Positions 15,385 to 54,003 of a stretch of 64,000 nt of DNA are shown here, one piece after another. Source of the stretch: an uncultured Actinomycetes bacterium (GTDB lineage Bacteria; Actinomycetota; CADDZG01; WHSQ01). The translations under genes were made by a program, and so were the position numbers. The stretch spans positions 248,001 to 312,000 of the forward strand of contig CALMBW010000020.1 in NCBI GenBank assembly GCA_937863385.1, read 5' to 3'. Below the pieces are notes generated by a model. The model was not told the DNA's origin and ran no database searches. It saw only the letters and a list, made by a program, of their open reading frames with translations. The first letter of the stretch is position 1. Every line of letters starts with the position of its first letter.

Positions 15385-16524
15385 TCAGAGGCCGTAGGTC
15401 TTGCCGATTATCTCTTTCATGATCTCGGACGTGCCGCCGCCGATGGGGCCGAGGCGGGTGTCGCGCCATGCCCTTTGGGCGGGGAACTCCATCATGTAGC
15501 CGTAGCCGCCGTGGATCTGGACGCACTCATCTGCGACCTGAAACGCCAGGTCGTTGGTGTAGAGCTTGGCCATGGCGACCTCACGGATGGGATCCTCACC
15601 TTCTACATACGCGCGCAGTGCTCGGTAGGTCAGGGCGCGAGCGGCTTCGATACGAGTGGCCATGTCGGCGAAACGGTGACGCCAAACCTGGAACTTGCCC
15701 ACCGGGCGGCCAAAGGCTTCGCGCTCGAGCGCGTAGTTTTTGGCCATCTCGTAAGTACGAGTGGCACCGGCTACTGCGCCAAGCGCCATGCACAAACGTT
15801 CCCAAGCGAAGTTACGCATGATGGCGTAGAAACCGCCGCCGATCTCGCCCAGGCGGTGCGAGTCGGGAACCCGCACGCCCGAGAAGGAAAGCTCGCCGGT
15901 CTGAGATGGACGCCAGCCAAGCATGCGGATACGGCGGGCTTCGAAGCCTGGGGTGTCCTTGTCCACCACGAACAACGTGAGGCCGGAATGACCGGCATCG
16001 GGGTCGGTTTTGGCAGCGACCACGACGTAGTCGGCCCAGGCTCCGTTGGTGATGAAGGTCTTGGAGCCATCGATGATCCAGTCGTTGCCGTCGGCGCGAG
16101 CCGTCGTGCGTAGACCGGCGACGTCCGAGCCCGCATCGGGTTCTGTGACGCCAAGAGCCCCGATGGCCTTGCCCTCGAGTGAGGGCCGGAGCCATCGTTC
16201 GTGCTGCTCGGGCGTCCCGAAGTTGTAGATGTAGAGACACGCAAGGTCCTTGTGCGCTCCCAGTGCAGCGGAGACTCCGCCGGAACCGATACGTGCGAAC
16301 TCTTCGATCACCACGACGTCGGCCAGGGCATCCGGCCCCGAACCGCCGATCTCCTCCGGGTACTTCATGCCGAAGTAGCCGAGTTCGCCAACCCGTTCGA
16401 AGATCTCGCGCGGGAAGGACTCATCGCGGTCCCACTGCTCGGCATGCGGAGCGAGTTCCTTGGTCACGAACGAGCGCACCGACGCGCGCAGCTGCTCGTG
16501 CTCGGGCGTGAAGAGGTCGCTCAC
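15385..16524 (-). CDS. Acyl-CoA dehydrogenase (second gene of pair)
   Basis: A full-length (379-residue) FAD-dependent acyl-CoA dehydrogenase: helical N-terminal domain, central ALGVTEPDAGSDV flavin/substrate segment, WIIDGSKTFITNG, and the C-terminal QIHGGYGYM and GGGTSEIM blocks. The C-terminal position that holds the catalytic Glu in medium-chain enzymes is Gly here. AWERL in the C-terminal domain carries a Glu at the position used by isovaleryl-CoA and long-chain dehydrogenases, so that residue is the probable base. The start overlaps the stop of the upstream paralogue by 4 bp, so the two are co-translated. Substrate chain length cannot be read from sequence. Confidence 0.9.
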   Translation of the reverse strand: MSDLFTPEHEQLRASVRSFVTKELAPHAEQWDRDESFPREIFERVGELGYFGMKYPEEIGGSGPDALADVVVIEEFARIGSGGVSAALGAHKDLACLYIYNFGTPEQHERWLRPSLEGKAIGALGVTEPDAGSDVAGLRTTARADGNDWIIDGSKTFITNGAWADYVVVAAKTDPDAGHSGLTLFVVDKDTPGFEARRIRMLGWRPSQTGELSFSGVRVPDSHRLGEIGGGFYAIMRNFAWERLCMALGAVAGATRTYEMAKNYALEREAFGRPVGKFQVWRHRFADMATRIEAARALTYRALRAYVEGEDPIREVAMAKLYTNDLAFQVADECVQIHGGYGYMMEFPAQRAWRDTRLGPIGGGTSEIMKEIIGKTYGL

Positions 16525-17666
16525 AGGCCCTCCATCCGGCCGATGATCTCGCGCATCACTTCATCGGTGCCGCCGCCGATCCGGATCAAGCGGGTATCGC
16601 GCCATGCACGCTGGATCGGCATCTCCATCGCGTAACCGTGACCACCGAAGATCTGCAGGGTGCGATCGGACACCTTCCAGGCAACCTCACCCGTCAGGAG
16701 CTTAGCCATGGATATCTCGCGCACGGGGTACTCACCGCGGTTCACCAACACCGCTGCGTGATAGACGAGCTGCTGTGCGGCTTCGATCTCGGTCGCCATG
16801 TCCGCCAGGTAGTGCCGGATCACCTGATGCTTACCGATCGGTTTCCCGAAGGTTTCGCGCTCTTTCGCATACGCCAGTGCCGCTTCGAATTGACGGCGAG
16901 CTCCGGCGATGGTTCCGGCCGCTCCGATCAGTCGCTCACCCTGGAGCTCCCACGAGATGTTGTAGAAACCCTCGCCCTCTTTACCCAGCAACGCTTCGTC
17001 GGGCACGAACATGTCGGTGAAGCTGATCTCGCCGGTGTCAGACGTTCGCATCCCGACCTTGTCGAGCACGCGCTCCACCTTGTAGCCCGGGGTGTCGGTA
17101 TCGACGACGAATAGAGAGATGCCTTGGTGACCGGCGTCGCGATCGGTTCGAGCCACCAACGTCATGGCATCGGCACGGCGGCCGTTGGTGATGAAGATCT
17201 TGCGGCCGTTGATGACCCACCCACCCTCGGTCTTGACCGCGGTGGTGCGCACGTTCTGAACGTCGCTGCCGGCGTCGGGCTCGGTGATGCCGAGACAGAA
17301 GATCTTCTCGCCCTTGATGGCGGGGATCAGATACCTCTTCTTCTGTTCCTCGGTCCCGAACTTGTACAGCGGCGGCACGGCCATATCCGTCTGGACCGCA
17401 ACCGCCATCGCCACCCCGCCCGAGAGACAACCGGCCATCTCTTCGGCCAGCACGATGTTGCAGAGATAGTCGCCCCCGCCGCCTCCGTACTCCTCAGGAT
17501 AGGAAAGGCCCAGGAACCCCAGCTCGCCCAGCCTCGTGAACACCAGATCGGGGAAGTCGCCCTGCTCCTCCCACTCCTCAGCGTGTGGCGCCAGTTCCTT
17601 GGAAACGAAAGCTCGGATCTGGGCACGGAGTTCCTCGTGCTCTGAAGAAAAGGGCCACGACGACAT
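16521..17666 (-). CDS. Acyl-CoA dehydrogenase (first gene of pair)
   Basis: A 381-residue paralogue of the next gene. It shows CLGITEPDAGSDV, WVINGRKIFITNG, a DxGEISF-type segment, and IFGGHGYAME with GGGTDEVM at the end. As in its partner, the base is probably the Glu in GERL rather than the C-terminal position, which is Gly. TAGTCT lies 6 nt before the ATG, so it opens a leaderless operon. Two different dehydrogenases translated together may form hetero-oligomers, as reported for alpha2beta2 acyl-CoA dehydrogenases of sterol degradation in mycobacteria. Here this is only a suggestion from gene order. Confidence 0.9.
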   Translation of the reverse strand: MSSWPFSSEHEELRAQIRAFVSKELAPHAEEWEEQGDFPDLVFTRLGELGFLGLSYPEEYGGGGGDYLCNIVLAEEMAGCLSGGVAMAVAVQTDMAVPPLYKFGTEEQKKRYLIPAIKGEKIFCLGITEPDAGSDVQNVRTTAVKTEGGWVINGRKIFITNGRRADAMTLVARTDRDAGHQGISLFVVDTDTPGYKVERVLDKVGMRTSDTGEISFTDMFVPDEALLGKEGEGFYNISWELQGERLIGAAGTIAGARRQFEAALAYAKERETFGKPIGKHQVIRHYLADMATEIEAAQQLVYHAAVLVNRGEYPVREISMAKLLTGEVAWKVSDRTLQIFGGHGYAMEMPIQRAWRDTRLIRIGGGTDEVMREIIGRMEGL

Positions 17667-17745
17667 CTGCGGAGACTAGTGCGCCGGTGACATCAGCGCG
17701 CATGACACACGTCGCATAACTTCCGTTCCGTTGCATGATTGGTGC

Positions 17746-18303
17746 ATGCGTCGATCGCTAGTGATGCTCATCGGCTTGGTAGCTGTGATGGCGGCATGCT
17801 CGTCCCAGACCACCACGACGACCGGATCATCCTCCCCGAGGAGCCCGGCCCCCACGGATGCACCTCCTCGGACGAGCCCCGAACCGAAAGACGAGATGGT
17901 TTGGGAAGGCCCGGAGTTCACCGTCGAGACCTTCGATGGCGAGCGGTTCGCTCTTGGCGAGCAACGGGGCACGCCGGTGGTGATCAACTTCTGGGAATCG
18001 TGGTGACCGCAGTGCCAGGGCGAACAGCCCGACCTCAACCAGTTGGCTGAGGAGTTCAGTGGCAAGGTCACCTTCGTCGGGGTTAGCAACAACGACACCG
18101 TCGAGGCCGGGAAGGAATATCGGGACGAGTTCGACGTCCCCTATCCACTTGCCCACGCCCCGGAGGTTTGGGATCTGTTCGACGTTCCCTATCAACCGGT
18201 AACGATCGTCCTGGGACCCACGGGAAAAGAAGAACTGAGGGTGGACGGGCCCATCACCTACGAAGAGTTGAGAGAAGTGCTCGAAGGTCTAACTTCGAGC
18301 TGA
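17746..18303 (+). CDS. TlpA/ResA-like thioredoxin lipoprotein with in-frame UGA (probable selenoprotein)
   Basis: The frame from ATG 17746 is interrupted only by TGA at 18004-18006 and continues to a stop at 18301-18303. Reading TGA as selenocysteine gives a 185-residue TlpA/ResA-type thioredoxin with active site W-U-P-Q-C (U87, C90), exactly where the family has WCPxC. The part after TGA (QGEQPDLNQLAEEF, then a cis-Pro segment near PYQPVTIV) continues the fold without a gap. The N-terminus is a lipoprotein signal ending in MAAC (Cys18), followed by a Ser/Thr/Pro linker, so the domain sits outside the membrane. A compact hairpin follows the UGA (18018-18030). Alternatives are a nonsense mutation or a base error. 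Confidence 0.8.
18018..18030 (+). promoter_or_regulatory. Candidate bacterial SECIS hairpin
   Basis: GGGC (18018-18021) and GCCC (18027-18030) pair around the loop GAACA, which begins 15 nt after the UGA. Bacterial SECIS elements sit just 3' of the UGA with a small loop that starts with G or GU, so size, distance and loop base fit. A second hairpin (CCTCA 18033-18037 with TGAGG 18048-18052, loop AGTT) lies behind it. No folding energy was computed. Confidence 0.5.
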
Positions 18304-18331
18304 GCCACGACGCTGCACTACGCTTGCGGGC

Positions 18332-18502
18332 ATGGAGCGACCCGATCCCACCCCGCAAGAGGTTCTCACCGAGCTCTATCGCTGCTGCGTCGAAGACTGT
18401 AAGGACTCGTGCCGGTTCGGGTGCATCGGCTGGTTGCATAACTTCGACCCTCCGCAACAGGAAGCATCCGGTGGACCAGAGCCAGCAACCAACGCCAGCT
18501 GA
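18332..18502 (+). CDS. Cys-rich 56-residue protein
   Basis: ATG at 18332 to TGA at 18500-18502. The product has five cysteines in a regular pattern, C-C-x3-C-x3-C-x3-C at positions 18-31 (CCVEDCKDSCRFGC), followed by IGWLHNF and a Pro/Ser/Gly tail. TACGCT 7 nt before the ATG gives the leaderless arrangement used by neighbouring genes. The cysteine ladder could bind a metal or an Fe-S cluster. I do not recognise a named family. It lies between the thioredoxin-like gene and a convergent acyl-CoA dehydrogenase. Confidence 0.55.
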   Translation: MERPDPTPQEVLTELYRCCVEDCKDSCRFGCIGWLHNFDPPQQEASGGPEPATNAS

Positions 18503-18525
18503 GCCCGTAGCCCAAGAACGCCCTG

Positions 18526-19677
18526 CTATGACAACAGGTTGCGGGCGATGATCATCTTTTGGATCTCGGAGGTCCCTCCGCCGATGGAGATGAGCTTCGC
18601 GTCGCGGATAGCACGCTCTACCGGGAACTCCTTGATATAGCCGTAGCCCCCATGGATCTGGACGGCCTCGAGAGCGTTTCGCATGCCGGCCTCGGCTACG
18701 AAGTACTTGGCGACACTCGCCTCGACCTCGTGCGGAAGCCCCTCTTGCTTGAGCCACGCAGCTCGGTAGAGCACGAGCCGGGCCGCGTCGTAGTACGCCT
18801 TCATCTCGGCGATCTTGTGTTGGATCGCTTGGTGCCTGGCGATGGGCTTGCCGAACGCGACACGCTCCTTCGCATACTTGATGGAGGCATCAAGGCTTGC
18901 CTTCATCGCGCCGACACTTCCCGCGATCATCACGGTCCGTTCCCAGTCGAAACACTCGAACGCGATCTTCCACAAGGCTGAACCTTCTTCACCCAGCATG
19001 TTCTCGGCCGGAACCCGGCAATCATCGAAGTGAAGCAGCGACAATGGCGAAGACCTAGTTCCCATCTTGTCGAGATCGCGGTCCACAACGAAACCCGGTG
19101 TGTTCTTCTCGACGATGAAGGCACTGACCCCGGCCCCCGCACCGGCGTCAGGATCGGTTACGGCGATGACTATGACGGTGTCCGCGATGGAGCCGTTGGT
19201 GATGAAGATCTTCGAGCCGTTGATCACCCACTCGTCGCCGTCACGCACCGCCCGGCACTTTATGGCGGCCGTGTCCGACCCAGCTTCAGGTTCGGTGATC
19301 GCCATGGCACCGATCCACTCACCACTGCACAGCTTCGGTAGGTACTTGCGCTTCTGCGCCTCGGTGCCGTGAAGAAAGATGGGGACGGTACCGATCGTCA
19401 CGTGCGCCCCTACCGACAGACCCAGCCCGGCGTCGTGTCCACCTTCGGCAAGAGCTTCGAGAGCCAAGCAGGTCGTGATGATGTCCGCACCCGAACCGCC
19501 GTACTCCTCGGGGATCGGAAGCCCCAGCAGCCCGAACCCGCCGAGCTGGTTCCACACGTCGCGGTCGAACCGGCTCTCGACGTCTCTTTCGTGGGCGCCG
19601 GGCTCGACCACCTTGGCAGCGAACTCCAGCACGGACGCATAGAACGCCCTTTGTTCTTGGTTGTGGGTGAAATCCAT
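18526..19677 (-). CDS. Acyl-CoA dehydrogenase
   Basis: A third 380-residue-class enzyme (383 residues) with MAITEPEAGSDTAA, WVINGSKIFITNG, QIHGGYGYI and GGGTSEIQ blocks. FDWERT supplies the Glu in the isovaleryl/long-chain position, while the medium-chain base position is Gly, as in the two other dehydrogenases. TAGGTT lies 6 nt before the ATG, so it is transcribed on its own as a leaderless mRNA. It is more distant in sequence from the upstream pair than these are from each other. Substrate unknown. Confidence 0.9.
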   Translation of the reverse strand: MDFTHNQEQRAFYASVLEFAAKVVEPGAHERDVESRFDRDVWNQLGGFGLLGLPIPEEYGGSGADIITTCLALEALAEGGHDAGLGLSVGAHVTIGTVPIFLHGTEAQKRKYLPKLCSGEWIGAMAITEPEAGSDTAAIKCRAVRDGDEWVINGSKIFITNGSIADTVIVIAVTDPDAGAGAGVSAFIVEKNTPGFVVDRDLDKMGTRSSPLSLLHFDDCRVPAENMLGEEGSALWKIAFECFDWERTVMIAGSVGAMKASLDASIKYAKERVAFGKPIARHQAIQHKIAEMKAYYDAARLVLYRAAWLKQEGLPHEVEASVAKYFVAEAGMRNALEAVQIHGGYGYIKEFPVERAIRDAKLISIGGGTSEIQKMIIARNLLS

Positions 19678-34039: not shown

Positions 34040-35188
34040 TTAGTGGTGGTGTCCATGACCATGGTCGTGACCGCCACCCATCGTCATCAAGGGCAGCTCG
34101 ATGCGTTTGGACGCCTTGGGTCGGGGCGGGAGCAGGTTCGTGATCTCCTTGGCGGCTTCGTCGAGTGCTTGCGCCACCTCGGTATCGGAGTGCTGTAGCA
34201 CGATCGGCGCACCGACATCTGCGAGTTCGCGCAGCTTGGGATCGATGGGGATCTGACCCAGCAGAGGCACGTTCAGGTTGTCGGCCAAACTCTGTCCTCC
34301 GCCACTTCCGAAGATGTCGTAAGCCTTGCCATCATCGCCGCGGAAGAAACTCATGTTCTCGATGACACCAATGACCTTGAGTCCGGTCTTCTCGGCCATG
34401 AAGCCGGCACGCTGCGCGACCTTCTCGGCGGCCGCTTGCGGTGTCGTTACAACGACCATCGAAGCGCCGGGAAGGAACTGCGCGATCGATATCGCCACAT
34501 CGCCGGTTCCCGGAGGGAGATCGATCAGAAGATAGTCGGGTTCGTCCCAGTGAACGTCGTTGAGGAACTGCTGCAAAGCCTTGTGCAACATCGGCCCCCG
34601 CCACACGACCGGATTGTCCTCGGTGGTGAACAGACCGATCGACACGATCTTCACCCCGAACATCTCGGGCGGAATGATCATGTCCTCGACGACGGTAGGG
34701 CGTTCGTGTACCCCGAGCATGCGCGGGATCGAGAAGCCCCAAACGTCCGCGTCCAGGAGGCCAACCTTGTAACCCTGCTTGGCGAGACTGGCTGCGAGGT
34801 TAACGGTCGTCGTGGACTTGCCCACGCCACCCTTACCGGAACCAACCGCGATCACCTGAGTGGAAGAGTCGCTGCGGGCGAAGGGGGCCGGCGCTACTTG
34901 GCGGAGGTTTCCGACCAATGCCTGGCGCTCTTCCTCGGTCATCGAGGTGAGCTGCACATCGACCTCGGTGATCTCGGGATAGGTCTCTTTCAGCTTCGCC
35001 GGAATGACCTGATGGAAGTAGTCCTTGAGGGGGCAGCCCGGGATCGTGAGCGCCACCAACACCCCAACCCGGGTCCCCTCGATGGCGATATTGCGAACCA
35101 TGTTGAGCTCGTTGAGCCCGCGATGCAGCTCGGGGTCCTGGATCTCGCCCAGTACTTGAGAGACCTGCTCCTCGGTCGGCATCGGCAT
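34040..35188 (-). CDS. mrp: Mrp/NBP35-type P-loop ATPase with N-terminal MIP18 domain
   Basis: Residues 1-90 are a MIP18/DUF59 domain (QDPELHRGLNELNMV). The ATPase follows, with the deviant Walker A GSGKGGVGKSTT near 117-128. These proteins carry iron-sulfur clusters to apoproteins. The usual CxxC pair after ENMS is missing: the segment reads ENMSFFRGDDGKAYD, so cluster binding, if any, must use other ligands. The C-terminus ends in a Gly/His-rich tail (HDHGHGHHH) that could bind metal. Length is 382 residues. The gene appears monocistronic. Confidence 0.85.
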   Translation of the reverse strand: MPMPTEEQVSQVLGEIQDPELHRGLNELNMVRNIAIEGTRVGVLVALTIPGCPLKDYFHQVIPAKLKETYPEITEVDVQLTSMTEEERQALVGNLRQVAPAPFARSDSSTQVIAVGSGKGGVGKSTTTVNLAASLAKQGYKVGLLDADVWGFSIPRMLGVHERPTVVEDMIIPPEMFGVKIVSIGLFTTEDNPVVWRGPMLHKALQQFLNDVHWDEPDYLLIDLPPGTGDVAISIAQFLPGASMVVVTTPQAAAEKVAQRAGFMAEKTGLKVIGVIENMSFFRGDDGKAYDIFGSGGGQSLADNLNVPLLGQIPIDPKLRELADVGAPIVLQHSDTEVAQALDEAAKEITNLLPPRPKASKRIELPLMTMGGGHDHGHGHHH

Positions 35189-35311
35189 GGAAAGAACCTC
35201 TCCTATCGTGGTCTAGAGGATGGGCAGCCACCTCGCCTGCCACTTAGCCCCAAGCCTAAAGGAACCCCACCTATTCCCCCACCACACCTTGCGCCCGGGA
35301 TTCGGCCCAGG

Positions 35312-36220
35312 CTAGCTGAGTAGTTCTAGGGCGTGGGGGATGTGGGTGAGGCGGGCTTCGGTCCAGTTGCCTAGGTAGTCGCCGTCTACCTGGACGGGTT
35401 TGGGGATGGTGGCGGTCCAGGTGATGTCGCCGACGTCGTGCCAGTAACGGTTGTGCTTCCAGTGCGCGTGACCGGCCTTCTGGGTGAAGACCGAGCGAAC
35501 GACCCGCGGGATGGTCGCGGTGCGGATGCGTCCGAACACCAACATGTCGAGGCGCTTGTCGAGTCTGGCATCCGGGCATGCGTTGAAAGGCCACTTCTTG
35601 AAGTAGGTGAAGGGCCACGCGTTCTGACATATGCCAAGGACCCCTTTGAACTCCTCGTCACCGACCTTGACGGTCAGCCACGGCTCGCTACCCCGGTATT
35701 CGGTCGAGCCCGCAGCCAGCGCGTGCTTCAAGAACACCCAGTCGCTTTTGTGGCCGGTACGTGCTTGTTGTTCTTCGACCCGGCGCACGACTTCAGCATC
35801 CAAACCGATGCCCGCAGAGAACAAGAAGTAGCGCTCGTTGATCTGACCCACCCCGATGCGGCGCTGAGTGTCTCTTCTGAGATGTTGAGAGACGTACGAG
35901 GTGGCTTCAACCGGATCGGTGGGCATGCCCAGCGAGCGCGCCATCACGTTGGTGGAGCCTCCCGGCAGGATGCCCAGAGCGACATCCGTTCCCACCAGCG
36001 GCTGGGCTACCTCGTTGATGGTGCCGTCACCGCCGAAAGCCAGGACGGCATCGAAGCCGCGGTCAACGGCTTCGGCCGATAACTCGATGGCGTGATCGCG
36101 CCGGGTGGTTTCGTGAGCTTCGAGCTTGAAGTCGGCCTGGAGAGCACGAACGATCACGTCGCGGGTCCGAGACGAAACCGAACCGGCGCGGGGATTGGCT
36201 ATCAGCATGACGGTCTTCAC
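35312..36220 (-). CDS. Diacylglycerol kinase-family lipid kinase
   Basis: The 302-residue protein has the DAGK catalytic signature LAFGGDGTINEVAQPL and a preceding NPRAGSVSS nucleotide-binding segment. LGILPGGSTNVMARSLG is the second conserved block. Bacterial members phosphorylate diacylglycerol or related lipids; sphingosine-kinase-like substrates are also possible. TAGCAT lies 8 nt before the GTG start, consistent with a leaderless transcript. It is alone on its strand. Confidence 0.88.
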   Translation of the reverse strand: MKTVMLIANPRAGSVSSRTRDVIVRALQADFKLEAHETTRRDHAIELSAEAVDRGFDAVLAFGGDGTINEVAQPLVGTDVALGILPGGSTNVMARSLGMPTDPVEATSYVSQHLRRDTQRRIGVGQINERYFLFSAGIGLDAEVVRRVEEQQARTGHKSDWVFLKHALAAGSTEYRGSEPWLTVKVGDEEFKGVLGICQNAWPFTYFKKWPFNACPDARLDKRLDMLVFGRIRTATIPRVVRSVFTQKAGHAHWKHNRYWHDVGDITWTATIPKPVQVDGDYLGNWTEARLTHIPHALELLS

Positions 36221-36268
36221 GGCCGGTCATGCTACAGGCGCTGCAGGAGACTCGCAGGGGGGAAAGCG

Positions 36269-36874
36269 CTAGGCGACGAGAGCGATGAAAGCTGCAACCA
36301 CCCGAGCGTCGAAGCGGGCTCCGGCCTCGGTCGAGATGTAGCGGATGGCCGAATCCTTGGTGAGCGCCGCCCGGTAAGGGCGGTCGGTGGTCAGTGCGTC
36401 GTAGGTGTCGGCCACGGCGAAGACCCTTGCTGCGAGTGGGATGTCGGTGCCCTCGAGTCCCTCCGGGTACCCGGTGCCGTCCCATCGCTCGTGGTGATAC
36501 GAGATCACGTCGAGGGTGTTCTGGCTGAAGCCGATCGGTTCAACGATCTGCACGCCCATGCGGGGGTGCTCTTTCATCAATCCCCACTCGATCTCGGTGA
36601 GCTCGCCGGGCTTGGTCAGGATCGAATCGGGGACGCCGATCTTGCCGACGTCGTGAAGCAAGAAGCCATGGCCGACGTCATCGCATAGCGAGAGTTCGTA
36701 GTCGATCTGCTCGAGGCAAGCGCTTGCCAGCAGTGCCGAGCGGTAGAGATGCTGGCCGGTGTGGCTGTCCTTGATCTCGACGGCACAAGCAAGTGCCTCG
36801 ACGATGCGACCGAGATCCTTGACGTCATCGCGCTCGACGCGAAGTTCTCCCAGAAGTGCCCCGTTCATTGCCAT
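36269..36874 (-). CDS. HD-GYP domain protein (c-di-GMP phosphodiesterase-like)
   Basis: The 201 residues are almost entirely an HD-GYP domain: HTGQHLYRS supplies the first His, LHDVGKIGVP is the HD motif, then HHERWDGTGYPEGL contains the GYP signature, and ADTYDALTTDRPYR follows. All metal-binding residues expected for c-di-GMP hydrolysis are present. There is no sensor domain. The ATG has a G-rich sequence upstream (GGGGGCAAGCAG). The ~195-bp divergent region upstream holds short dyads but no riboswitch I can name. Confidence 0.85.
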   Translation of the reverse strand: MAMNGALLGELRVERDDVKDLGRIVEALACAVEIKDSHTGQHLYRSALLASACLEQIDYELSLCDDVGHGFLLHDVGKIGVPDSILTKPGELTEIEWGLMKEHPRMGVQIVEPIGFSQNTLDVISYHHERWDGTGYPEGLEGTDIPLAARVFAVADTYDALTTDRPYRAALTKDSAIRYISTEAGARFDARVVAAFIALVA

Positions 36875-37070
36875 CTGCTTGCCCCCAAGCCGGATGCCGT
36901 TGTGTGAAGGTCATGAAACATCTAAGCGAGCACCCTGTGACCCGGCAGACGTCGGGAACCTAAGGGACCGCTCCGGTTAGCCCGGATTGACTAGTCCTTG
37001 TGACCCACTTTCCACTCTAGCCTTTCAAGCACAACGGCACCGCGGGGCGCCGTTGGCTATCCTCCAGGCC

Positions 37071-37562
37071 ATGGAGTTCAAGGTGGCCCACGAGTTCGAT
37101 GCAGAGGTCGACGCGGTTGCTGCGGCGATGTTGGACCTGGACTTCCAGAAGACCCTCGATGGGGTGGGGCACCTTGCCGAACGGCGTGTGCTGGAGCAAA
37201 CCGACAAGGGCGGCAAGACCCTGCGCCGTTCTCGGTGTGTGCTGGACATCAAGATCGACGGCACGGCCAAGAAGTTCATCGGCGACGGAGACCCAGCCTG
37301 GGTCGAGGTTGCCGAGTGGGATCCCATCAAGCTCGCTTGGACCTGGCACATCGAGCCCGAGGTCGCCGGGGATCTCCTAGAAGCGGCAGGCCGCACGGAG
37401 TTGATCGCCACCGACCGGGGCACCACGATCCGAACCGTGGAAGGCAAGGTCAAGGTCAAGGTCCCCTTCTACGGGGGCAAGGTCGAAGGCTGGATCGTGG
37501 ACGGGCTGGAAAGCTCGTACGACGAAGAGGCCGAGTTGCTCGCCGACTGGCTGGCCTCCTAG
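37071..37562 (+). CDS. DUF2505-like SRPBCC-fold protein
   Basis: Start ATG at 37071 has TATCCT 7 nt upstream (leaderless); the longer upstream frame is not supported. The 163-residue product (KVAHEFDAEVDAVAAAMLD, then RRSRCVLDIKIDG and GGKVEGWIVDGL) matches DUF2505, a START/SRPBCC-type family frequent in Actinomycetota that likely binds a hydrophobic ligand. No ligand is known. Confidence 0.75.
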   Translation: MEFKVAHEFDAEVDAVAAAMLDLDFQKTLDGVGHLAERRVLEQTDKGGKTLRRSRCVLDIKIDGTAKKFIGDGDPAWVEVAEWDPIKLAWTWHIEPEVAGDLLEAAGRTELIATDRGTTIRTVEGKVKVKVPFYGGKVEGWIVDGLESSYDEEAELLADWLAS

Positions 37563-37643
37563 CGCCCCCGTCCCTGCTCCAGCATCCCCCGTTGTCCCGG
37601 CGGTTCGACAGGAGATGCGATCCGCACGGCGAAACCTAGGGCT

Positions 37644-38120
37644 ATGAGGAAACTGATCATCGCCACCACCATCGCTGCCCTCGCCGTTCTCCCTGCAGCA
37701 GAGGGATTCGCCAAGAAGAAGGCTGCCAAGCTTCAGACCGTCGAAGGCACCATCGAGGTGCCTCAGCCCTACGCCGCGGACGGGTCTTGCATCTACCGCA
37801 CCCACCGCACGGCCTACATCGCTGCGGGCGAGTCAAGCAACGGGGGCTTCGGTTGGGTATTCGAGGTCGATCCGGCCACCGTCAACAAGCCCTTCAAGCT
37901 CGAAGTGGCCGGCGGCGCCGGGATGGACATCAGCTTCTACATGGACATGGGCGATCCGACCGATCCGACCACTGCCCCTGCCAACACGGGCTTCGAAACA
38001 CCCGGGCCCGGTGGCGAATCGGGCATCGTGCCGGACGGGTACAAGTACGGCTTCGTGTGCATGACCGAGGGTGCCAACGCCGGTTTCACCTACACCGCCG
38101 GCAAGGGCGTCAAGCCCTAA
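37644..38120 (+). CDS. Secreted hypothetical protein
   Basis: The 158-residue product has a Sec signal ([19 protein letters not shown] then EGFAKKK) followed by a beta-rich domain with few charged clusters, several Gly/Pro turns and two cysteines far apart that could form a disulfide. I do not recognise a family; the composition suggests a beta-sandwich, perhaps of the PPC type. A strong hairpin follows the stop. Confidence 0.7.
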
Positions 38121-38131
38121 CCAACTCAACC

Positions 38132-38173
38132 GAACCTCACCGGCCTACGAGAACTACGTAGCCGGTGAGGTTC
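38132..38173 (+). terminator. Hairpin after the secreted-protein gene
   Basis: GAACCTCACCGGC (38132-38144) pairs perfectly with GCCGGTGAGGTTC (38161-38173), 13 bp around a 16-nt loop. No T-run follows directly, but the position between the stop and the glnA promoter fits a terminator or insulator. Confidence 0.55.
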
Positions 38174-38176
38174 CGC

Positions 38177-38230
38177 GTAACAAGCCTTTTACAAAGGGGA
38201 AACGGGAGGGAAACCCCTTAGCCATAGTCT
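38177..38230 (+). promoter_or_regulatory. GlnR box and promoter of glnA
   Basis: Four pentamers lie exactly 6 nt apart: GTAAC (38177-38181), TTTAC (38188-38192), GAAAC (38199-38203) and GAAAC (38210-38214). The published GlnR consensus is gTnAc-n6-GaAAc repeated twice with the same 11-bp period. The -10 hexamer TAGTCT (38225-38230) starts 10 nt after the last pentamer, so GlnR would sit over the -35 region. A glnR gene is present at 55.8 kb. Confidence 0.75.
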
Positions 38231-38286
38231 GTCCCCCATATGGGCACATCGACGTGCCCGCTCTTTCAACCCGAAGAGGAGGAGAC

Positions 38287-39711
38287 GTGGCAGCAAGTCC
38301 TTCCGACGTGCTCAAGCTGGGGCAACAGAACAATGCCCAGTTCGTCGACATCAGATTCTCGGATCTCCCCGGCCTCATGCAGCACTTCTCGATGCCGTTC
38401 GAAGAGTTCACCGAAGACGTATTCGAAGAGGGTCTTGGTTTCGACGGGTCATCGATCCGTGGTTTCCAGGAGATCCAAGAGTCGGACATGATCCTGGTTC
38501 CGGATCCCGAGACCGCAGTGATGGATCCGTTCCGTCAGCACCCCACGCTGATCATCCATGCGTACGTCAAAGACCCGATCACCGGCGAGTTCTACACGCG
38601 CGACCCGCGCTATATCGCTAGGAAAGCTCAGGACTACCTGCAGGGCACGGGCATCGCGGACGTCGCCTATTTCGGACCCGAGGCCGAGTTCTACATCTTC
38701 GACTCGATCCGGTTCGATCAGAATCAGCACTCGAGCTACCACTACATCGACGCCGTCGAGGGCGTGTGGAACTCGGGCCGCGATGAGGACGGTGGGAACA
38801 AGGGTTACAAGCCTCGCTACAAAGAAGGGTATTTCCCCGTTCCTCCGATGGATCACTATCAGGATCTCCGAAGCGAGATGGTTGTCACCTTGCGTGACCT
38901 AGGCATCCCGGTCGAGGTTCACCACCACGAGGTGGGTACGGCGGGTCAGAGCGAGATCGACATGGGCTTCGGTCCGTTGCTCGAGATGGCCGACCGTCTG
39001 ATGCTCTACAAGTACGTGGTCAAGAATGTCGCGCTCAAGTACAACAAGACGGTCACGTTCATGCCCAAGCCGATCTTCCAGGACAACGGTTCCGGCATGC
39101 ACGTTCACCAGAGCATCTGGAAAGACGGCGAGACCATGATGTGGGACGAGCTCGGCTATGCGCAGCTCTCCGACAACGCTCGCTACTACATCGGTGGACT
39201 TCTCGCCCACGCGAACTCACTGCTTGCGCTGACGAACCCGACGACCAACAGCTTCAAGCGACTGGTCCCGGGTTACGAAGCGCCGGTGAACCTCGTTTAC
39301 AGCCAGCGCAACCGGTCTGCCGCGGTCCGGATCCCGGCGTACTCGAAGTCGCCCAAGGCCAAGCGTGTCGAGTTCCGCTGTCCCGACCCAAGCTGCAACC
39401 CCTACCTCGCCTTCTCGGCGATGTTGATGGCGGGCCTGGACGGGATCAAGAACAAGATCGAGCCGCCCGAGCCCATGGACAAAGACCTTTACGAGCTTCC
39501 CGCAGAGGAGCTTGCCAACGTCCCGCAGGTGGTGGACTCACTCGACAAGGCGCTCGAAGCACTCGAGGCCGATCACGATTACCTGCTCGAAGGCGGGGTC
39601 TTCACCGAAGACGTGATCACGTCGTGGTGTGACTACAAGAGAGCTCACGAGGTGGACGCCCTCCGCCTGCGTCCCCACCCGTATGAGTTCTACCTCTACT
39701 ACGACATCTAG
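38287..39711 (+). CDS. glnA: Glutamine synthetase, adenylylation-controlled type
   Basis: The GTG at 38287 follows AGGAGGAG, giving 474 residues, the normal type I length; the longer frame into the upstream region is not coding. The beta-grasp region has [15 protein letters not shown]. Catalytic segments include [29 protein letters not shown] and NRSAAVRIP. Tyr402 in [11 protein letters not shown] is at the adenylylation site, the target of GlnE (48.5 kb). The enzyme makes glutamine from glutamate, ammonia and ATP. Transcription probably responds to nitrogen through the GlnR box upstream. Confidence 0.97.
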
Positions 39712-39758
39712 CGATTCTGCGTCGGAATACGGCTGCATAGCAACCACTCACCGACAAA

Positions 39759-39796
39759 GAAACAGGCCCCCGGATCCCCACCCGGGGGCCTGTTTC
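39759..39796 (+). terminator. Terminator of glnA
   Basis: 15-bp perfect arms, GAAACAGGCCCCCGG (39759-39773) and its complement at 39782-39796, enclose an 8-nt loop 48 bp after the glnA stop. It is a bidirectional-looking, very stable hairpin. Confidence 0.85.
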
Positions 39797-39855
39797 ACTC
39801 TGAAGTCCTAGCGCACGATCTCTTTGATGGACCTGTCGGCGATCTGAAAACCCTT

Positions 39856-39873
39856 CTGTCACCTAGGCGACAG
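39856..39873. repeat. 18-bp near-palindrome before the RTX-like gene
   Basis: CTGTCACCTAGGCGACAG has dyad symmetry with one mismatched pair and lies 74 bp upstream of the RTX-like start. It could be an operator. No known regulator consensus was recognised. Confidence 0.35.
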
Positions 39874-39946
39874 CCTCGCCAGCGCGATGGCGTCACCGTC
39901 ATCTCAGGAGATCGCAAAGGGCGATCGCCGAAACGGGAGGACGGTC

Positions 39947-41590
39947 ATGCAAGGGAAGGTTCGGGTACGGATCCGGCGACGAGGGTTGAGGTTTATCACG
40001 GCAGCTTGCCTCGTCATGAGTTTGCTAGCACCGAATGCGGTGGCAGAGGTCGGCGCTCAAAAGTGCTTCGGGAAGAAGGCGACGGTAGTTGCCAAAGCCG
40101 GACAGGAAACGAAGGGGACCAGGAAGACCGACGTAATCATTGGGACCAGGGGGTCGGACTCCATCGACGGCCGGGGTGGTAACGATCTGATCTGCGGCCG
40201 GGGTGGAGATGACGTTCTCTACGGGGGAAAGGGTAGTGACCGCCTGAATGGTGGAAGGGACTCGGGATATGGAGACACTTTCTATCCGGGACCTGGCGAT
40301 GACATCATCGATGGCGGTCCCGAAGGAAGCGGCATGGGCCTCTCGGACTTCGGCGATTGGGTGCTTTACGAGGACGCGACCGGACCCGTCCACGCCGATC
40401 TAGAAACGGGAGAAGCCACGGCGGTTGGCCTCGGATCGGACAGCCTCGCCGATATCGAGCAGGTGAGCGGGGGTCCTTACGACGACCTCTTGACCGGAAA
40501 TGAAGCTACCAACTGGCTCCTGGGTGGCAACGGGGATGACGTACTCGACGCCAATGGTGGAAACCTCGACTCGATGAATCCGGGGTTGGGGGACGACACC
40601 GTCATCGGCACACCCGGGTCACGTAACTGGGTGGGTTACGAAGACACCCCATCCGAGGGGGCAATCATCGATCTCACATCTCAAACCGTCACCGGTGTAG
40701 GCAACGACTCACTCAGTAACATCACCGATGCGGGCGGCACGCTTGGAGCCGACACCCTAATCGGCACGGACGGACCCAACTACTTGTTCGGTCAATCTGG
40801 GGACGACACGCTCAATGGCAACGGTAACGATGCGGATCTCTCCGATCCGGCCAGTTTCATCGGAGGATTCAACCTGGATGTGCTTGTTGGGGACTGCGGA
40901 TGTTTCGGGACCGGCGAAAACGAACTGGGCGACGATAGCTTCATCGGAGGGTCGGGAGTGACGATGGTCAGCTTCGTCAACTCCACCGCCCCTGCCATCA
41001 TCGACCTGTCCGAGGGCACTGCGAGCGGCGAAGGCTCGGACACGCTTACCGGTGTCAATGCAGTAGTGGGATCCGACCACGACGATCAGATCATCGGCAC
41101 CGATGGTTCCGATCTCTTCGAAGGCTCACCCGGTAATGACTCGATCAACGGTGGGGAGGGTACCGACGTAGTCATTGCCTTCCATGCCTTGGGCGGCACC
41201 GAGATCGATCTGGATGCGGGAACGATGACCGGAAAGTTCCCCGGTTTCGTTGGGGGGATGTTCGGTTTCTACGATTCCGATACAACCCTGACAAACATCG
41301 ACGATGCGTGGGGCAGCCTTGACTTCCCCGACGAAATCATCGGGGACGAGAACAACAACAAGCTCGTCGGGATGAGTGGAGACGATTCCCTCTCCGGCGC
41401 GGGAGGTGATGATCATCTCGATGGGATGGAAGGGACGGATACCGCTAATGGCGGATCCGGAACGGATACTTGCGTAGGCATCGAAGAAGCCGAGGCCTGC
41501 GAGGAAGAATCTCCATCCGTCAGCCGACAGGTAGGCAAGGCGCGGTGGATCCGTACGGCCCGAACGGGACCCCTCGTTCGCATGTACTGA
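39947..41590 (+). CDS. Secreted RTX-like calcium-binding repeat protein
   Basis: The ATG at 39947 follows GGGAGG; the frame extends 20 codons further up without a better start. The 547-residue product has a Sec signal (RRRGLRFITAACLVMSLLAPNAVA) and then hemolysin-type nonapeptide repeats: GTRGSDSIDGRGGNDLICGRGGDDVLYGG near 85-113, with further GGxGxDxL units around 195, 285 and 490-520. Between them lie longer repeats of about 75-100 residues containing a xIDLxxxxxxGxGxDxLxxI pattern. Such parallel beta-rolls bind calcium and occur in extracellular adhesins, proteases and toxins. No enzyme domain and no type I secretion genes are seen. Confidence 0.85.
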   Translation: MQGKVRVRIRRRGLRFITAACLVMSLLAPNAVAEVGAQKCFGKKATVVAKAGQETKGTRKTDVIIGTRGSDSIDGRGGNDLICGRGGDDVLYGGKGSDRLNGGRDSGYGDTFYPGPGDDIIDGGPEGSGMGLSDFGDWVLYEDATGPVHADLETGEATAVGLGSDSLADIEQVSGGPYDDLLTGNEATNWLLGGNGDDVLDANGGNLDSMNPGLGDDTVIGTPGSRNWVGYEDTPSEGAIIDLTSQTVTGVGNDSLSNITDAGGTLGADTLIGTDGPNYLFGQSGDDTLNGNGNDADLSDPASFIGGFNLDVLVGDCGCFGTGENELGDDSFIGGSGVTMVSFVNSTAPAIIDLSEGTASGEGSDTLTGVNAVVGSDHDDQIIGTDGSDLFEGSPGNDSINGGEGTDVVIAFHALGGTEIDLDAGTMTGKFPGFVGGMFGFYDSDTTLTNIDDAWGSLDFPDEIIGDENNNKLVGMSGDDSLSGAGGDDHLDGMEGTDTANGGSGTDTCVGIEEAEACEEESPSVSRQVGKARWIRTARTGPLVRMY

Positions 41591-41598
41591 TCCTCCCG

Positions 41599-41630
41599 GG
41601 AAAAGGGGGCCCTCGCAGGCCCCCTTTTCC
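41599..41630 (+). terminator. Terminator of the RTX-like gene
   Basis: Arms GGAAAAGGGGGCC (41599-41611) and GGCCCCCTTTTCC (41618-41630) form a 13-bp stem with a 6-nt loop, 8 bp after the stop, ending in TTTTCC. Confidence 0.85.
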
Positions 41631-41731
41631 AATCCACAACACGCCGATAACGGCACCCATCGGGCACTTCGCCCGAACGATTTGCCCACTACGTCCTAGA
41701 CGTCGTCCGAACAGCCTGTTTTCATCGATGC

Positions 41732-44700
41732 ATGTGGGGTGGGACGAAAGGATCGGCATCAAGGCACCGGCGGACCGTTACGGTCCTGTTCTGTGACCTC
41801 GTCGACTTCACATCTCTCACCGACCGACACGATCCGGAGCTGGTCCACAACGTCGTTTCTTCGCATTTCGAGAAGATGCACGAAGTGCTGTCCGCTTACG
41901 GAGGCACGATCGAAAAATTCATCGGCGACGCGATCATGGCGGTATTCGGCTACCCCAGATCATCCGGCAACGACGCGCTTCGCGCCATCCAGGCCGCCCG
42001 TGCGATGCTCGTAGCGATCGAGGCCCACAATGTGGAGCTCGAGTATCAGTGGGGAATCACCATCTCGGCATCCATCGGAATCGAGACTGGTGAAGTGGTT
42101 GCGAGTGCCGATCCTTCCTCAGAAGCCTTTGTGATGGGACATCCGGTCAACACCGCGGCTCGGCTCGAACAGCAGGCGGGAGCGGGCGAGGTCCTAGTGG
42201 GGCCGGTCACCCTGGAGATAGTCCGTGAGTGCGCCGTCATGGACGAACCGCGGAAACTCTCTTTGAAGGGGAAGAGCCAAGATTCACTCGCCTATCCATT
42301 GCTAGCAGTCAAAGGAACCCCTTCCGGCCACGGTCGCATCGTGGGGAGGGACCAGGAACTCAAACTTCTCCTGGACATGACGCGGGCATCGTCGGACTCG
42401 GGCGACATGGCGCGCGCCTTCATCCGCGGCGATGCAGGAGTTGGGAAATCATCGCTCCTAGCCAGATTCGCTCATCGGATCGAAGCCGATGTGACATTAG
42501 CCGGTGCATGCCGAATCTACCCAGCACCGTCTCCGTTGCAGCCACTGATCGAGATGCTGCACGGATTACTGGGTATCCGTGTCAGTGATCCGGATGAATC
42601 GATACGAGAAAGGATCGCTGCAGAGGTTCACAGCAGTGGGGAGGCAGACTATCTCACCTCGGTACTGGATTCACTGCTTCGAACGGCTGACGACCGCGAC
42701 AGCTCCAACGTGACGTTAGATGATGCATTCAACACCTTACGAGCTCTCCTATTGCCCAGGTTGCGCTCCGGAAACTCCGCGGTACTTCTATTCGAGGACC
42801 TCCATGCGGCAGAGCCTTCTTTCCTTCTTGCTCTCACCCGATTCGCACTGACTCCCACTGCGGGTGACATCGTGCTGGTGGCCACAACTAGGCCTTCCAA
42901 AGACCCGTTCTTGGAACAGCTCCTGGGCTGGGGGAAGATCGTCGACTTACGCCCCTTGGATGCAGCAGCAGCGGACGAACTTCTGACGGCCGCGCCTTTC
43001 CTCCTTCACAACAAGGCACTCAGGCAAAGGATCTTCGAGTCAAGCGGTGGAAACCCCCTCTTTATCCGAGAGTTCGTCAGGATGCTGAGGGACCGGGGTT
43101 CTACGTCATCTACGGGGATCGAAGCTCTGAACATCCCTCAGACCGTGGAATCGGTGATTCAAGCACGGCTAGACGAACTCAGTGTAGAAGCGCGTGAGAC
43201 CTTGCAACGCGCGTCGATACTTGGAAACGACCTTCCGGCAGATCTCCTCTCGGCGCTATTAGGGGAACGCCAGCGAGAACTCAAGGATCTCATCGCCCGT
43301 GGCTTTATCAGCGAAGGCACATCAGGTCTTGCGTTCAACCATGAATCCATCCGCGATGTTGCCTATGGATCCTTGATGCGTGAACAGCGTGTCCCCCTCC
43401 ATAAGGAGGCTGCTGCGGCCATCGCCTCGGCCCAGAGCTTCGAAGGATCCCGGGACGAAGCGATCGGATTCCACCTCGAGTCGGCCTTCAACAACCGCAA
43501 ACTTCTCGGACGGCTGGACGGAGAAGCTCACGATCTAGCAAGATCCGCCGGCGAGCGCCTCTACCGTGCCGGCATCCTCAGACGCGATCGCTTCCAAGAC
43601 ACAACAGGAGCGATGGACCTCTTGGAGCGGGCGATCGAACTACTCCCCGAGGGGCATATCGATCGACTCGACGCTCTCGTCCGCGCTGCAGCGTGCGCCG
43701 TCGAGACCGGGCATCAAGAGAAGGAGCAGGCCTGGTGGAAGGCAGCGACACACGAAGCAACGGACGACCAGCGGGTCCGGCTGGAGATCGAGAAACTCGA
43801 GATGGATCTTCAGAGGGTTTGGGCGGGAGCGCTGGACAGGGACTCGGAACTCGAAAGACGCGCCTTGGAGCTGATCGACCGATTCGCAAGAGAGCAACAC
43901 CTCGACTACCTGTACCGCGCCTGGAGTGCCCTTGCCGTGATTCACTCACTCGTAATCGGGGGACCAGATCCTTCAGCAGCGCTCGAGAACGCCATCTACG
44001 TCGCTCAACGTATGACGCAACACGACGACGAGGCTCTGGCCTCGTTCGTTAGCCTCGCCTCTGCGCTCGTTTGGGGCCCCGTCCCGGTCAGTCAGGCAAA
44101 GAAGCGCGTAGCGGATCTCCGAGAGCGCGTCGGGGATCGCCAACCCTACTCGGCAGCGATGGACTGCTACCTGGGATTACTTATCGGCTTCGGTGGGGAA
44201 ACCGAGGCTGGCAGAGATCTGATCGAGCGCGGGATGAGCTTCTATTCGAACCTTGGGATGCATGGATCCGTTGCGCGGGGGGCTCATTGTCGAGGGGCCT
44301 TGAGCATGTACGCAGGAGATTGGGACCGTGCCAAAGAGATCTACGTAGAGGCATCCGACCACCTGATCAAGACGGGCGATCCGTTCGGGGTTGTGCAGCA
44401 TCTCGCTCATGCAGGTCACATCCTGCTGTGGAAGGGGGACACAGAGGGGGCTCGGCACATGCTAGAGCGCGGAAAGCAACTGCCCGCGGCGCAAACACTT
44501 GAAAAGGTCTTTCTGAATCTGCTAGAGGCTCGATTGCTCGCTCTAGATGAGGACCCGCGGGCCGCCGGCCTCGCTGAAGAGAGCCTACGTGAGATGGCCA
44601 ATCACTCGTGGTGTGAATATGCCGATGCCTACTTGCTGCTGGCCGACCTCTATTGCTCGGTCGGACGATATCAAGAGGCGCGGCTCATGGCGCAGAAAGC

Positions 44701-44812
44701 TCATGAGATGTTCGTCTCAAAGGAAAGCTTGCTGCGGGTTGAAGCAGCTGAACGATTCCTCAAAGAGCTGCCTATCGATCAGCTCTATGACGAAGCTGGT
44801 CGATCTCTTTGA
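41732..44812 (+). CDS. Class III adenylate/guanylate cyclase with AAA ATPase and TPR-like region
   Basis: Residues about 14-180 form a class III nucleotide cyclase: FCDLVDFT with metal Asp22, EKFIGDAIMAVFG with Lys62 and Asp66, and HPVNTAARLE with the transition-state Asn and Arg. A P-loop follows (GDAGVGKSS, about 230) and a LuxR/MalT-like AAA domain. The last ~450 residues are helical repeats of TPR type. This cyclase-AAA-TPR layout is common in Actinomycetota and links nucleotide signalling to an unknown ligand sensed by the repeats. The gene ends overlapping by 41 bp with the convergent CRP-type regulator, a likely target of the product. The start lacks a clear ribosome-binding site. Confidence 0.9.
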   Translation: MWGGTKGSASRHRRTVTVLFCDLVDFTSLTDRHDPELVHNVVSSHFEKMHEVLSAYGGTIEKFIGDAIMAVFGYPRSSGNDALRAIQAARAMLVAIEAHNVELEYQWGITISASIGIETGEVVASADPSSEAFVMGHPVNTAARLEQQAGAGEVLVGPVTLEIVRECAVMDEPRKLSLKGKSQDSLAYPLLAVKGTPSGHGRIVGRDQELKLLLDMTRASSDSGDMARAFIRGDAGVGKSSLLARFAHRIEADVTLAGACRIYPAPSPLQPLIEMLHGLLGIRVSDPDESIRERIAAEVHSSGEADYLTSVLDSLLRTADDRDSSNVTLDDAFNTLRALLLPRLRSGNSAVLLFEDLHAAEPSFLLALTRFALTPTAGDIVLVATTRPSKDPFLEQLLGWGKIVDLRPLDAAAADELLTAAPFLLHNKALRQRIFESSGGNPLFIREFVRMLRDRGSTSSTGIEALNIPQTVESVIQARLDELSVEARETLQRASILGNDLPADLLSALLGERQRELKDLIARGFISEGTSGLAFNHESIRDVAYGSLMREQRVPLHKEAAAAIASAQSFEGSRDEAIGFHLESAFNNRKLLGRLDGEAHDLARSAGERLYRAGILRRDRFQDTTGAMDLLERAIELLPEGHIDRLDALVRAAACAVETGHQEKEQAWWKAATHEATDDQRVRLEIEKLEMDLQRVWAGALDRDSELERRALELIDRFAREQHLDYLYRAWSALAVIHSLVIGGPDPSAALENAIYVAQRMTQHDDEALASFVSLASALVWGPVPVSQAKKRVADLRERVGDRQPYSAAMDCYLGLLIGFGGETEAGRDLIERGMSFYSNLGMHGSVARGAHCRGALSMYAGDWDRAKEIYVEASDHLIKTGDPFGVVQHLAHAGHILLWKGDTEGARHMLERGKQLPAAQTLEKVFLNLLEARLLALDEDPRAAGLAEESLREMANHSWCEYADAYLLLADLYCSVGRYQEARLMAQKAHEMFVSKESLLRVEAAERFLKELPIDQLYDEAGRSL

Positions 44813-45464
44813 TCACGATAGTTCCACGTTCCATCTCTATGTAACGGCGGCTCTCGAAACTACGAAGGATCTGATTCACACTCTGCCGGGAACCTCCGAC
44901 CATGGAAGCGAGATCACCTTGAGTCAGCGATAGATCGAGGGTGAGGCCTTGCTCACTCTTGCTACCGTGCTGTTCAGCCATCTTGACCAGAAGCTTGGCG
45001 ACACGTGCGTGAAGATCCATGAACACAAGGTCGCTCGTCTGCTCGGTTAGGCGTCTGATCATTCCGCCCAATGACTTCAAGAGTGATTCGATCATGGTCG
45101 GTTCTTGCACCAGCATCTCCATCATCAGCGAACGCGTAATCATCAGGACGTCAGTAGGCTCAGCGGCCTCTGCAGTTGCTGAGCGCGGCATCCCATCGAT
45201 CATCGCCAACTCACCAAAGGTGTCGCCTTGCGTAAGAGTTGCTAACACCATCTCTTCACCGCTCGAAGAAACGACCGCGATCTTCACCAAACCCGCGACT
45301 ACAACGTAAGTCGAGTCCCCTAGGTCACCTTGGTGAAAGATGCGCTCACCTCGACGGTAAGAGCGCCTGATAGAGCGACCGAACAAATTCGCGAGGCTAC
45401 TTTCATCGAGGTGAGTAAAAAGGGGCGACCCCTTGAGGAGCTCCCTGACTTGCTCATCGTCCAT
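44772..45464 (-). CDS. CRP/FNR-family transcription regulator
   Basis: The 230-residue protein has a cyclic-nucleotide-binding domain: GERIFHQGDLGDSTYVVVAG, then GDTFGELAMIDGMPRSATAEA, in which the phosphate-binding Glu, Arg and Ser are kept. The C-terminal winged helix is LTQGDLASMVGGSRQSVNQILRSF. It lacks the iron-binding cysteines of FNR, so cAMP is the likely ligand. The adjacent cyclase gene supports this. ATG is preceded by GGAGG. Confidence 0.92.
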   Translation of the reverse strand: MDDEQVRELLKGSPLFTHLDESSLANLFGRSIRRSYRRGERIFHQGDLGDSTYVVVAGLVKIAVVSSSGEEMVLATLTQGDTFGELAMIDGMPRSATAEAAEPTDVLMITRSLMMEMLVQEPTMIESLLKSLGGMIRRLTEQTSDLVFMDLHARVAKLLVKMAEQHGSKSEQGLTLDLSLTQGDLASMVGGSRQSVNQILRSFESRRYIEMERGTIVIKEIDQLRHRADR

Positions 45465-45593
45465 TGCGCGCCTCCGTCTACGTCTATCGTCCCACTTTCG
45501 GCCGCAGCCATTCCACCTGCAAGAACAGATGTGGAGTCGGTGACACTTCTTTGGTAGGGGGATCAGGGGGCCGACCGCATAGCGACGTAGGAA

Positions 45594-46184
45594 CTAGATG
45601 GGTGGGGCGGGGTCGTATTGGATGCCTTTGCGAACGGCTCGGGCTCGGTCTTCGGAGTGCAGACGCTTGACGAGATGCAGGGCCATGTCGATGCCGGCGC
45701 TCACGCCTGCGGCGGTGATGACTTCGCCGCTGTCGACGAATCGGTCGTCGGGCCGCACTTCGACCGAGCTATCGAGATCCTTGAGCAGGTCGAGTTGCGC
45801 CCAGTAGGTGGTTGCGGGGCGGGCGGTCAACAAGCCTGCGTCTGCGAAAACCAGCGCGCCGGTGCAGACACTCGTCATCAAGGTGCCGCCAGATGCCAAG
45901 TCGCTCAGCCACTGTTTGATGCTCTCGTCGCCCAATTGCGCCCGGGTGCCGATGCCGCCCGGGAACACCAGAACATCTAGCTCGCCAACGTTTGATCGGG
46001 TGCGATCGGGCAGGACACGCAACCCCTTGGCACAGGTAACCGGACCCTCTTCATCGGCGAAAGTGAGAACTTCGACGTCGTCGTCGGGCCACTCCTTGGC
46101 CCAATGTGCCAGGACCTCCCACGGCCCGGCCCAGTCAAGCTCTTCGGCGTTGGGGAACAGATAGATGCCGATGCGGGTGGTCAA
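45594..46184 (-). CDS. DJ-1/PfpI-family protein
   Basis: The 196-residue protein has the class I glutamine amidotransferase-like fold with the nucleophile elbow SVCTGALVFADAG and an upstream VFPGGIGTR segment. YLFPNAEELDWAGPWEV is typical of the group that includes isonitrile hydratases and AraC-type N-terminal domains. There is no DNA-binding domain here. The exact reaction is not predictable. Its start overlaps the ftsH stop by 4 bp, so it is translated with ftsH. Confidence 0.85.
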   Translation of the reverse strand: MTTRIGIYLFPNAEELDWAGPWEVLAHWAKEWPDDDVEVLTFADEEGPVTCAKGLRVLPDRTRSNVGELDVLVFPGGIGTRAQLGDESIKQWLSDLASGGTLMTSVCTGALVFADAGLLTARPATTYWAQLDLLKDLDSSVEVRPDDRFVDSGEVITAAGVSAGIDMALHLVKRLHSEDRARAVRKGIQYDPAPPI

Positions 46185-48331: not shown

Positions 48332-48336
48332 AGGGG

Positions 48337-48498
48337 ATGAGATATCTCGTGCCCCTCATAGTGCTCATCGGTGTCGTCCTGCTGATGGGCAGCTTCAACG
48401 GCGAGGGCTTCAGAGCCGTTCGGGGGGTGCTGTTCGGGATCGGATTGTTAGGACTGCTCGTGGTGATCTTCGGGATCATCGCTGCCCAAGCAACCTAG
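48337..48498 (+). CDS. 53-residue two-helix membrane protein
   Basis: ATG at 48337 to TAG at 48496-48498. The product is nearly all hydrophobic: helix 1 at about 3-18 (YLVPLIVLIGVVLLMG), a short polar turn with NGEGFRAVRG, and helix 2 at about 31-49. It starts head-to-head with ftsH. FtsH acts on small membrane proteins and is regulated by some, so proximity is suggestive only. It ends 6 bp before the convergent glnE stop. Confidence 0.5.
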   Translation: MRYLVPLIVLIGVVLLMGSFNGEGFRAVRGVLFGIGLLGLLVVIFGIIAAQAT

Positions 48499-48504
48499 CG
48501 CCGC

Positions 48505-51165: not shown

Positions 51166-51310
51166 GTACTTAGAACTCTACCGTTGGGCCGCGAGGCCTA
51201 TCGGGGCGGGGATGTAGGCCTTCGGTTGTGGATGAGACACAAAAACGACCCCGATAGTTCTCTGTCAAGTCAGGTTTACCGCTCTCCGAAGCTTCACTAA
51301 GGTTCGCAAT
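51166..51310. other. Promoter-proximal gap between glnE and the NlpC/P60 leader
   Basis: It contains the glnE -10 hexamer (51180-51175) and, on +, presumably the promoter of the leader RNA. No gene is visible. Confidence 0.4.
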
Positions 51311-51439: not shown

Positions 51440-51504
51440 GCTGTCGTGGTCTAAGCACGCGCGCGCAGCAAGCAATACGAGGTCCTCATTGCAGGGAGGT
51501 GAGA

Positions 51505-52029: not shown

Positions 52030-52053
52030 ATCCTCGGCAGGTCTTACCGCACA

Positions 52054-53413: not shown

Positions 53414-53420
53414 GACCGAA

Positions 53421-53965: not shown

Positions 53966-54003
53966 CCTCCTTAGGCACTTGGAGGACTAATAGAGTCGTG
54001 GGT

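Follow-up and report, generated by a model that had tools for sequence, protein, structure and literature searches.

A TGA codon inside a thioredoxin-like gene

The locus described here raises the question of whether a TGA codon lying inside an otherwise complete thioredoxin-like gene of an uncultured actinobacterium is read as selenocysteine (Sec) and, if so, which RNA hairpin directs its insertion and what kind of protein results. The gene occupies positions 17746-18303 of the plus strand of the window, by which we mean the whole stretch of 64,000 nucleotides that was analysed, and it comprises 185 residues with Sec at position 87 and a terminal TGA stop at 18301-18303. When we re-read the frame, which translates as MRRSLVMLIGLVAVMAAC...NFWESW-U-PQCQGEQPDLNQLAEE..., we found exactly one internal stop, the TGA at 18004-18006 (context ...NFWESW-U-PQCQGEQP...). 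An earlier note on this DNA had placed this sole interruption, with correct coordinates, at the first Cys of a W-U-P-Q-C motif, and it had also described the frame as continuing past the TGA; the frame is indeed intact up to the terminal stop, but 98 sense codons intervene and not the 99 counted before. The translated frame scored 59.6 bits against the Pfam AhpC-TSA profile (cut-off 26), was also above the cut-off of the Redoxin profile and matched the Thioredoxin profile. Among the seven AhpC-TSA-type frames of the host genome, it is the only one with an internal stop. Automatic annotation would miss such a protein or end it at residue 86. Three other UxxC-like TGA positions within the window had no family support when judged by eye.

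The first 54 nucleotides of the gene (17746-17799, plus strand) encode a hydrophobic leader, ...VAVMAAC, that by eye ends in a lipobox-like Cys18 (17797-17799). The residue at position -3 of this lipobox is Met, which is not the commonest residue there, and similar Cys-ending leaders were found in most homologues. Cys18 would be the lipidated residue, in keeping with the lipoprotein that had been proposed earlier.

The host genome (2.77 Mb in 27 contigs, 99.8% complete) was searched for the Sec machinery, as the earlier note had advised, and all four components were present above curated cut-offs: selA (535 bits, cut-off 268), selB (296 bits, cut-off 242), selD (390 bits, cut-off 125) and one tRNA-Sec with a UCA anticodon (81 bits, cut-off 47). 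The selA and selB genes are at most about 8 kb apart on contig 9, where two long secreted-hydrolase-like frames lie between them (35001-54000, L018), so that they are not adjacent; selD and the tRNA-Sec gene sit on other contigs. SelD itself is of the Cys form (GGGCACKL). We considered whether a Sec formate dehydrogenase might account for the sel genes and rejected this, because its UHxP motif is absent from all five molybdopterin-binding frames of the host genome. One molybdopterin oxidoreductase frame on contig 19 (L198) carries CHSP and is possibly the Cys counterpart of that enzyme.

Conservation of the UGA codon and of a downstream hairpin

The same codon is TGA in 11 genomes belonging to two bacterial families, f1, which is that of the host, and f15. 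The orthologues were found among 61 genomes, eight of them in f1 (G013, G008, G006, G012, G002, G010, G015 and G004) and two in f15 (G035 and G049). The homologue alignment suggested earlier as a check for Cys at position 87 revealed it in three homologues, G011 and G007 of f1 and G063 of f15, and position 87 (Sec or Cys), Cys90 (18013-18015) and Glu93 are invariant throughout. When 397 genomes of the phylum were searched with a profile, the subfamily turned up in f1 and f15 only, with at least 188 bits for full-length members compared with about 120 or less for other TlpA-like proteins, and a scan of genome contigs gave only three distant relatives. A complete selA or tRNA-Sec was missing from three genomes with Sec orthologues (G012, G013 and G015), all of them fragmented drafts. 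Single-base stops do occur in draft genomes, but a nonsense mutation or a miscalled TGC or TGT is an exceedingly improbable explanation of a TGA that recurs in 11 separate assemblies, in frames intact on both sides, with conserved residues past it and hyperconserved codons downstream.

This hyperconservation was apparent when we compared the codons of the seven full-length Sec orthologues of f1. In codons 10-15 after the TGA (CTC AAC CAG TTG GCT GAG, 18034-18051), all 126 of 126 synonymous pairs were identical, against a synonymous identity of 0.55-0.58 elsewhere, both before the TGA and beyond these codons, and none of 3000 codon-resampling simulations reached this level. Two of the fixed codons, TTG and GCT, are otherwise little used, encoding 1 of 34 Leu and 4 of 64 Ala residues outside the region, and the partial orthologues G015 and G004 agree with the fixed set. 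The stretch can form a hairpin, CCTCAACC-AGTT-GGCTGAGG (18033-18052, plus strand; loop 18041-18044), whose loop lies 34 nt after the UGA and which contains one A.C mismatch; within 18034-18051 six of seven positions pair, to which one outer C-G pair is added. Published limits for bacterial SECIS elements (bSECIS) are a loop of 3-9 nt with G in its first or second position, a stem of at least 4 bp, a distance of 16-37 nt from the UGA and a minimum free energy of at most -7.5 kcal/mol, as given in a 2026 review (PMC13188914). The 20-nt stretch, which is identical in relatives, lies within them, with an AGUU loop (G second), a distance of 34 nt and -7.9 kcal/mol. However, the 57-nt stretch from the UGA onwards folds no better than its shuffles (z -0.52), so that folding energy alone is no proof, and we set this z-score aside as uninformative.

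Since the hairpin is invariant in f1, evidence of covariation has to come from sister families. A hairpin of 6 bp with a five-base loop is found there at the same codons, the 3′ side of its pairing being shifted by one base relative to that of f1. Across 23 Sec sequences, picked for CAG at codon 12 or for a visible hairpin, it pairs in 97.8% of cells, 22 of which are double-changed, and its covariation of 0.59 compares with 0.22 after shuffling (0 of 500 shuffles as high) and with 0.19 or less when the pairing is slid. In the Sec sequences outside this selection we saw another hairpin or could identify none, so that the exact structure is not universal. Among the Cys homologues, the distal hairpin is lost in G007 and G063 and kept in G011.

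The earlier note had pointed to a hairpin starting 12 nt after the UGA. Such a hairpin exists (GGGC-GAACA-GCCC, 18018-18030, plus strand), it forms in the predicted fold, it has a G in its loop and it lies near the 16-nt minimum distance, so that the same selenoprotein could in principle be made with this proximal element as its SECIS. We rejected this candidate as quite unlikely, since the variation in its codons is no lower than background and its nearest equivalent in the sister families displays no compensatory change, while the distal hairpin has both signals. Judging from these comparisons, the functional SECIS is the hairpin at 18033-18052 rather than the one at 18018-18030.

UGA read-through occurs in bacteria, and a selenium-less protein could result here from ordinary read-through or from decoding as Cys or Trp with no need of a SECIS. 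This is very unlikely, given that the genome has the Sec machinery, that the same gene uses TGA as its terminal stop and that the hairpin is kept alongside the TGA but lost in two of the three Cys homologues. The in-frame TGA is thus almost certainly read as selenocysteine, as first proposed from the sequence, and the full machinery, the conservation of the TGA across genera, the Cys in some homologues and the conserved and covarying hairpin at an allowed distance all speak for it.

Within one genus, G011 (L022) has TGC where G015 (L031) has TGA, one base apart, and the SECIS hairpin is still intact in G011. As the hairpin has been kept and the genus is shared with the Sec-bearing G015, a recent change from Sec to Cys in G011 is probable. 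These two genomes offer a natural Sec/Cys pair with which to study the benefit of selenium to such an enzyme.

Predicted fold and possible redox role

The AlphaFold2 model of the protein has a mean pLDDT of 84, with values above 90 for most of the domain. It matches both ResA and Mycobacterium tuberculosis DsbF, with Foldseek TMt values of about 0.89 and 0.88, respectively, and DsbF is the most identical (34%) among the matches listed. In the model, Sec87 stands just before the active-site helix, at the site of the attacking Cys in ResA and DsbF. Among solved structures, the nearest in both sequence and fold are M. tuberculosis DsbF (3IOS) and DsbE/MPT53 (1LU4), both extracytoplasmic and with WCxxC in the same context; they differ in having Cys where the selenoprotein has Sec, and their identity to it is about 34% or less. 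Bacillus ResA has in common with it the fold, the membrane anchoring and an active-site context with a conserved Glu, but it has an active-site Cys instead of Sec and a role in cytochrome c maturation. With the NCBIfam ResA model the protein reached 68.3 bits, short of the cut-off of 170, and no NCBIfam model covers the gene or its subfamily above cut-off.

The fold match, the geometry of Sec87 and Cys90 and the activity of the mycobacterial enzymes lead us to infer an extracytoplasmic thiol-disulfide oxidoreductase. Our main reading, to which we give a probability of about 0.9, is that of an exported, probably lipid-anchored protein of the TlpA/ResA/DsbF group, in which Sec87, directed by the SECIS at 18033-18052, would be the nucleophile and Cys90 the resolving residue. 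SelB and Sec-tRNA(UCA) would insert selenocysteine at the UGA (18004-18006), guided by the hairpin; Sec87 would take the place of the first, nucleophilic Cys of a CxxC motif and Cys90 would resolve the selenenylsulfide. As to electron flow, substrates and partner, we infer that disulfide exchange with extracytoplasmic proteins or with small thiols is the most likely activity, as in mycobacterial DsbF and MPT53, and that a membrane partner would recycle the protein. DsbD-like membrane proteins are thought to serve Mt-DsbE and Mt-DsbF (PMC3853704). No redox partner gene was found in the neighbourhood of the selenoprotein gene, where acyl-CoA dehydrogenases, a NUDIX protein and a cobalamin adenosyltransferase are encoded; three minus-strand acyl-CoA dehydrogenase genes surround it (15385-19677).

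The protein could instead act as a ResA/CcmG-like reductant, for instance of apocytochrome c, rather than in DsbF-like disulfide formation. This is a serious possibility, though somewhat short of an even chance: both the profile and the fold comparisons place ResA among their best matches, and the invariant Glu93 follows the second active-site Cys at a distance of three residues, an arrangement shared with ResA, whose E80 mutants figure in the PDB matches. However, the best single-sequence PDB match is DsbF (63.5 bits, where ResA chains reach at most 55.6), and no cytochrome maturation gene adjoins the locus. Moreover, Mt-DsbE and Mt-DsbF are reported to fold hirudin oxidatively, even though both can reduce insulin in vitro as well (PMC3853704).

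Probable selenocysteine-containing relatives in the phylum

Selenoproteins of the UxxC TlpA-like kind have been known since 2005, when they appeared in a Sargasso Sea set (PMC1088965). Table 1 of the 2026 review lists four Sargasso Sea sequences under 'Thiol-disulfide isomerase-like protein, cd02966, UxxC', and the review also has a 'Prx-like thiol:disulfide oxidoreductase', a 'Redoxin family protein UxxC' and a UGC-type TlpA protein (PMC13188914). In view of these listings, the kind is already known. The Sargasso Sea cd02966 protein is alike in having Sec at the first UxxC position of a TlpA-like thioredoxin fold, but it is marine and metagenomic, and the likeness is drawn from the published listing. 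The ResA-like WAxxUGC motif selenoprotein of model NF041054 likewise combines Sec with a ResA-like fold, whereas its motif is UGC and not UPQC (UxxC), and our protein scored only 26.7 bits against its cut-off of 300. What is new is the clade of actinobacterial Sec proteins, together with its SECIS and its relation to DsbE/DsbF; we found no description of this clade in the open-access literature that we consulted in part, where absence is no proof of novelty.

We searched the DNA of 397 genomes of the phylum for the pattern [W/F]xxWUxxCxx[E/D]xP, with the reversed pattern as a control, and obtained 50 matches versus 2. Reading of the frames showed 42 of the 50 to be W-U-x-x-C thioredoxin-fold proteins, and the other 8, which were chance frames, were dropped. 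The 42 proteins, together with a second copy in G052, represent 14 families within the phylum, and most of them start with a leader that closes with a lipobox-like Cys. Thus the earlier remark that Sec is unusual in extracytoplasmic lipid-anchored thioredoxins was only partly right, given the reviewed UxxC proteins and the recurrence of Sec lipoproteins across many actinobacterial families. The carriers, 41 from the motif search plus G050 from the orthologue search, had a tRNA-Sec in 34 of 42 genomes, compared with 20 of 38 non-carriers, which were not a random sample (Fisher p 0.007). The conserved UGA and hairpin are the marks of a broad clade of actinobacterial selenoproteins, which would bring selenium into the chemistry of extracytoplasmic disulfide exchange, alongside the well-studied enzymes of the tuberculosis bacterium.

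In a rough tree, 40 of the 43 Sec rows grouped together, and the group also took in four Cys rows, those of G007, G011, G063 and the G058 protein (L049), an MPT53 relative with 224 bits to 1LU4. This G058 match, along with the large one-genus groups among the genomes, also points to Actinomycetota as the phylum searched. The resolution of the tree is weak, given its few columns, long branches and a base support of 86/62, and its Cys sampling is limited, so that the nesting of Cys forms within the Sec group is a lead and not a result. Tentatively, and with more doubt than confidence, we would see here an ancient, mostly vertical actinobacterial clade of extracytoplasmic Sec-DsbE/DsbF lipoproteins, of which the mycobacterial Cys enzymes MPT53 and DsbF might be selenium-losing descendants, and which, rather than formate dehydrogenase, might help to maintain the Sec trait in some lineages. 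For the lineage of the host, this last suggestion stems from a SelD with Cys and molybdopterin-binding oxidoreductases without Sec. Three Sec-TlpA proteins fall outside the main Sec group, L185 and L186 of family f29 and L183 of G320; they possibly represent separate origins of Sec, although their long branches make this unsure. The single-contig genome G052 encodes two different Sec-TlpA lipoproteins (L139 and L074), one of which has HUPAC in place of WUxxC.
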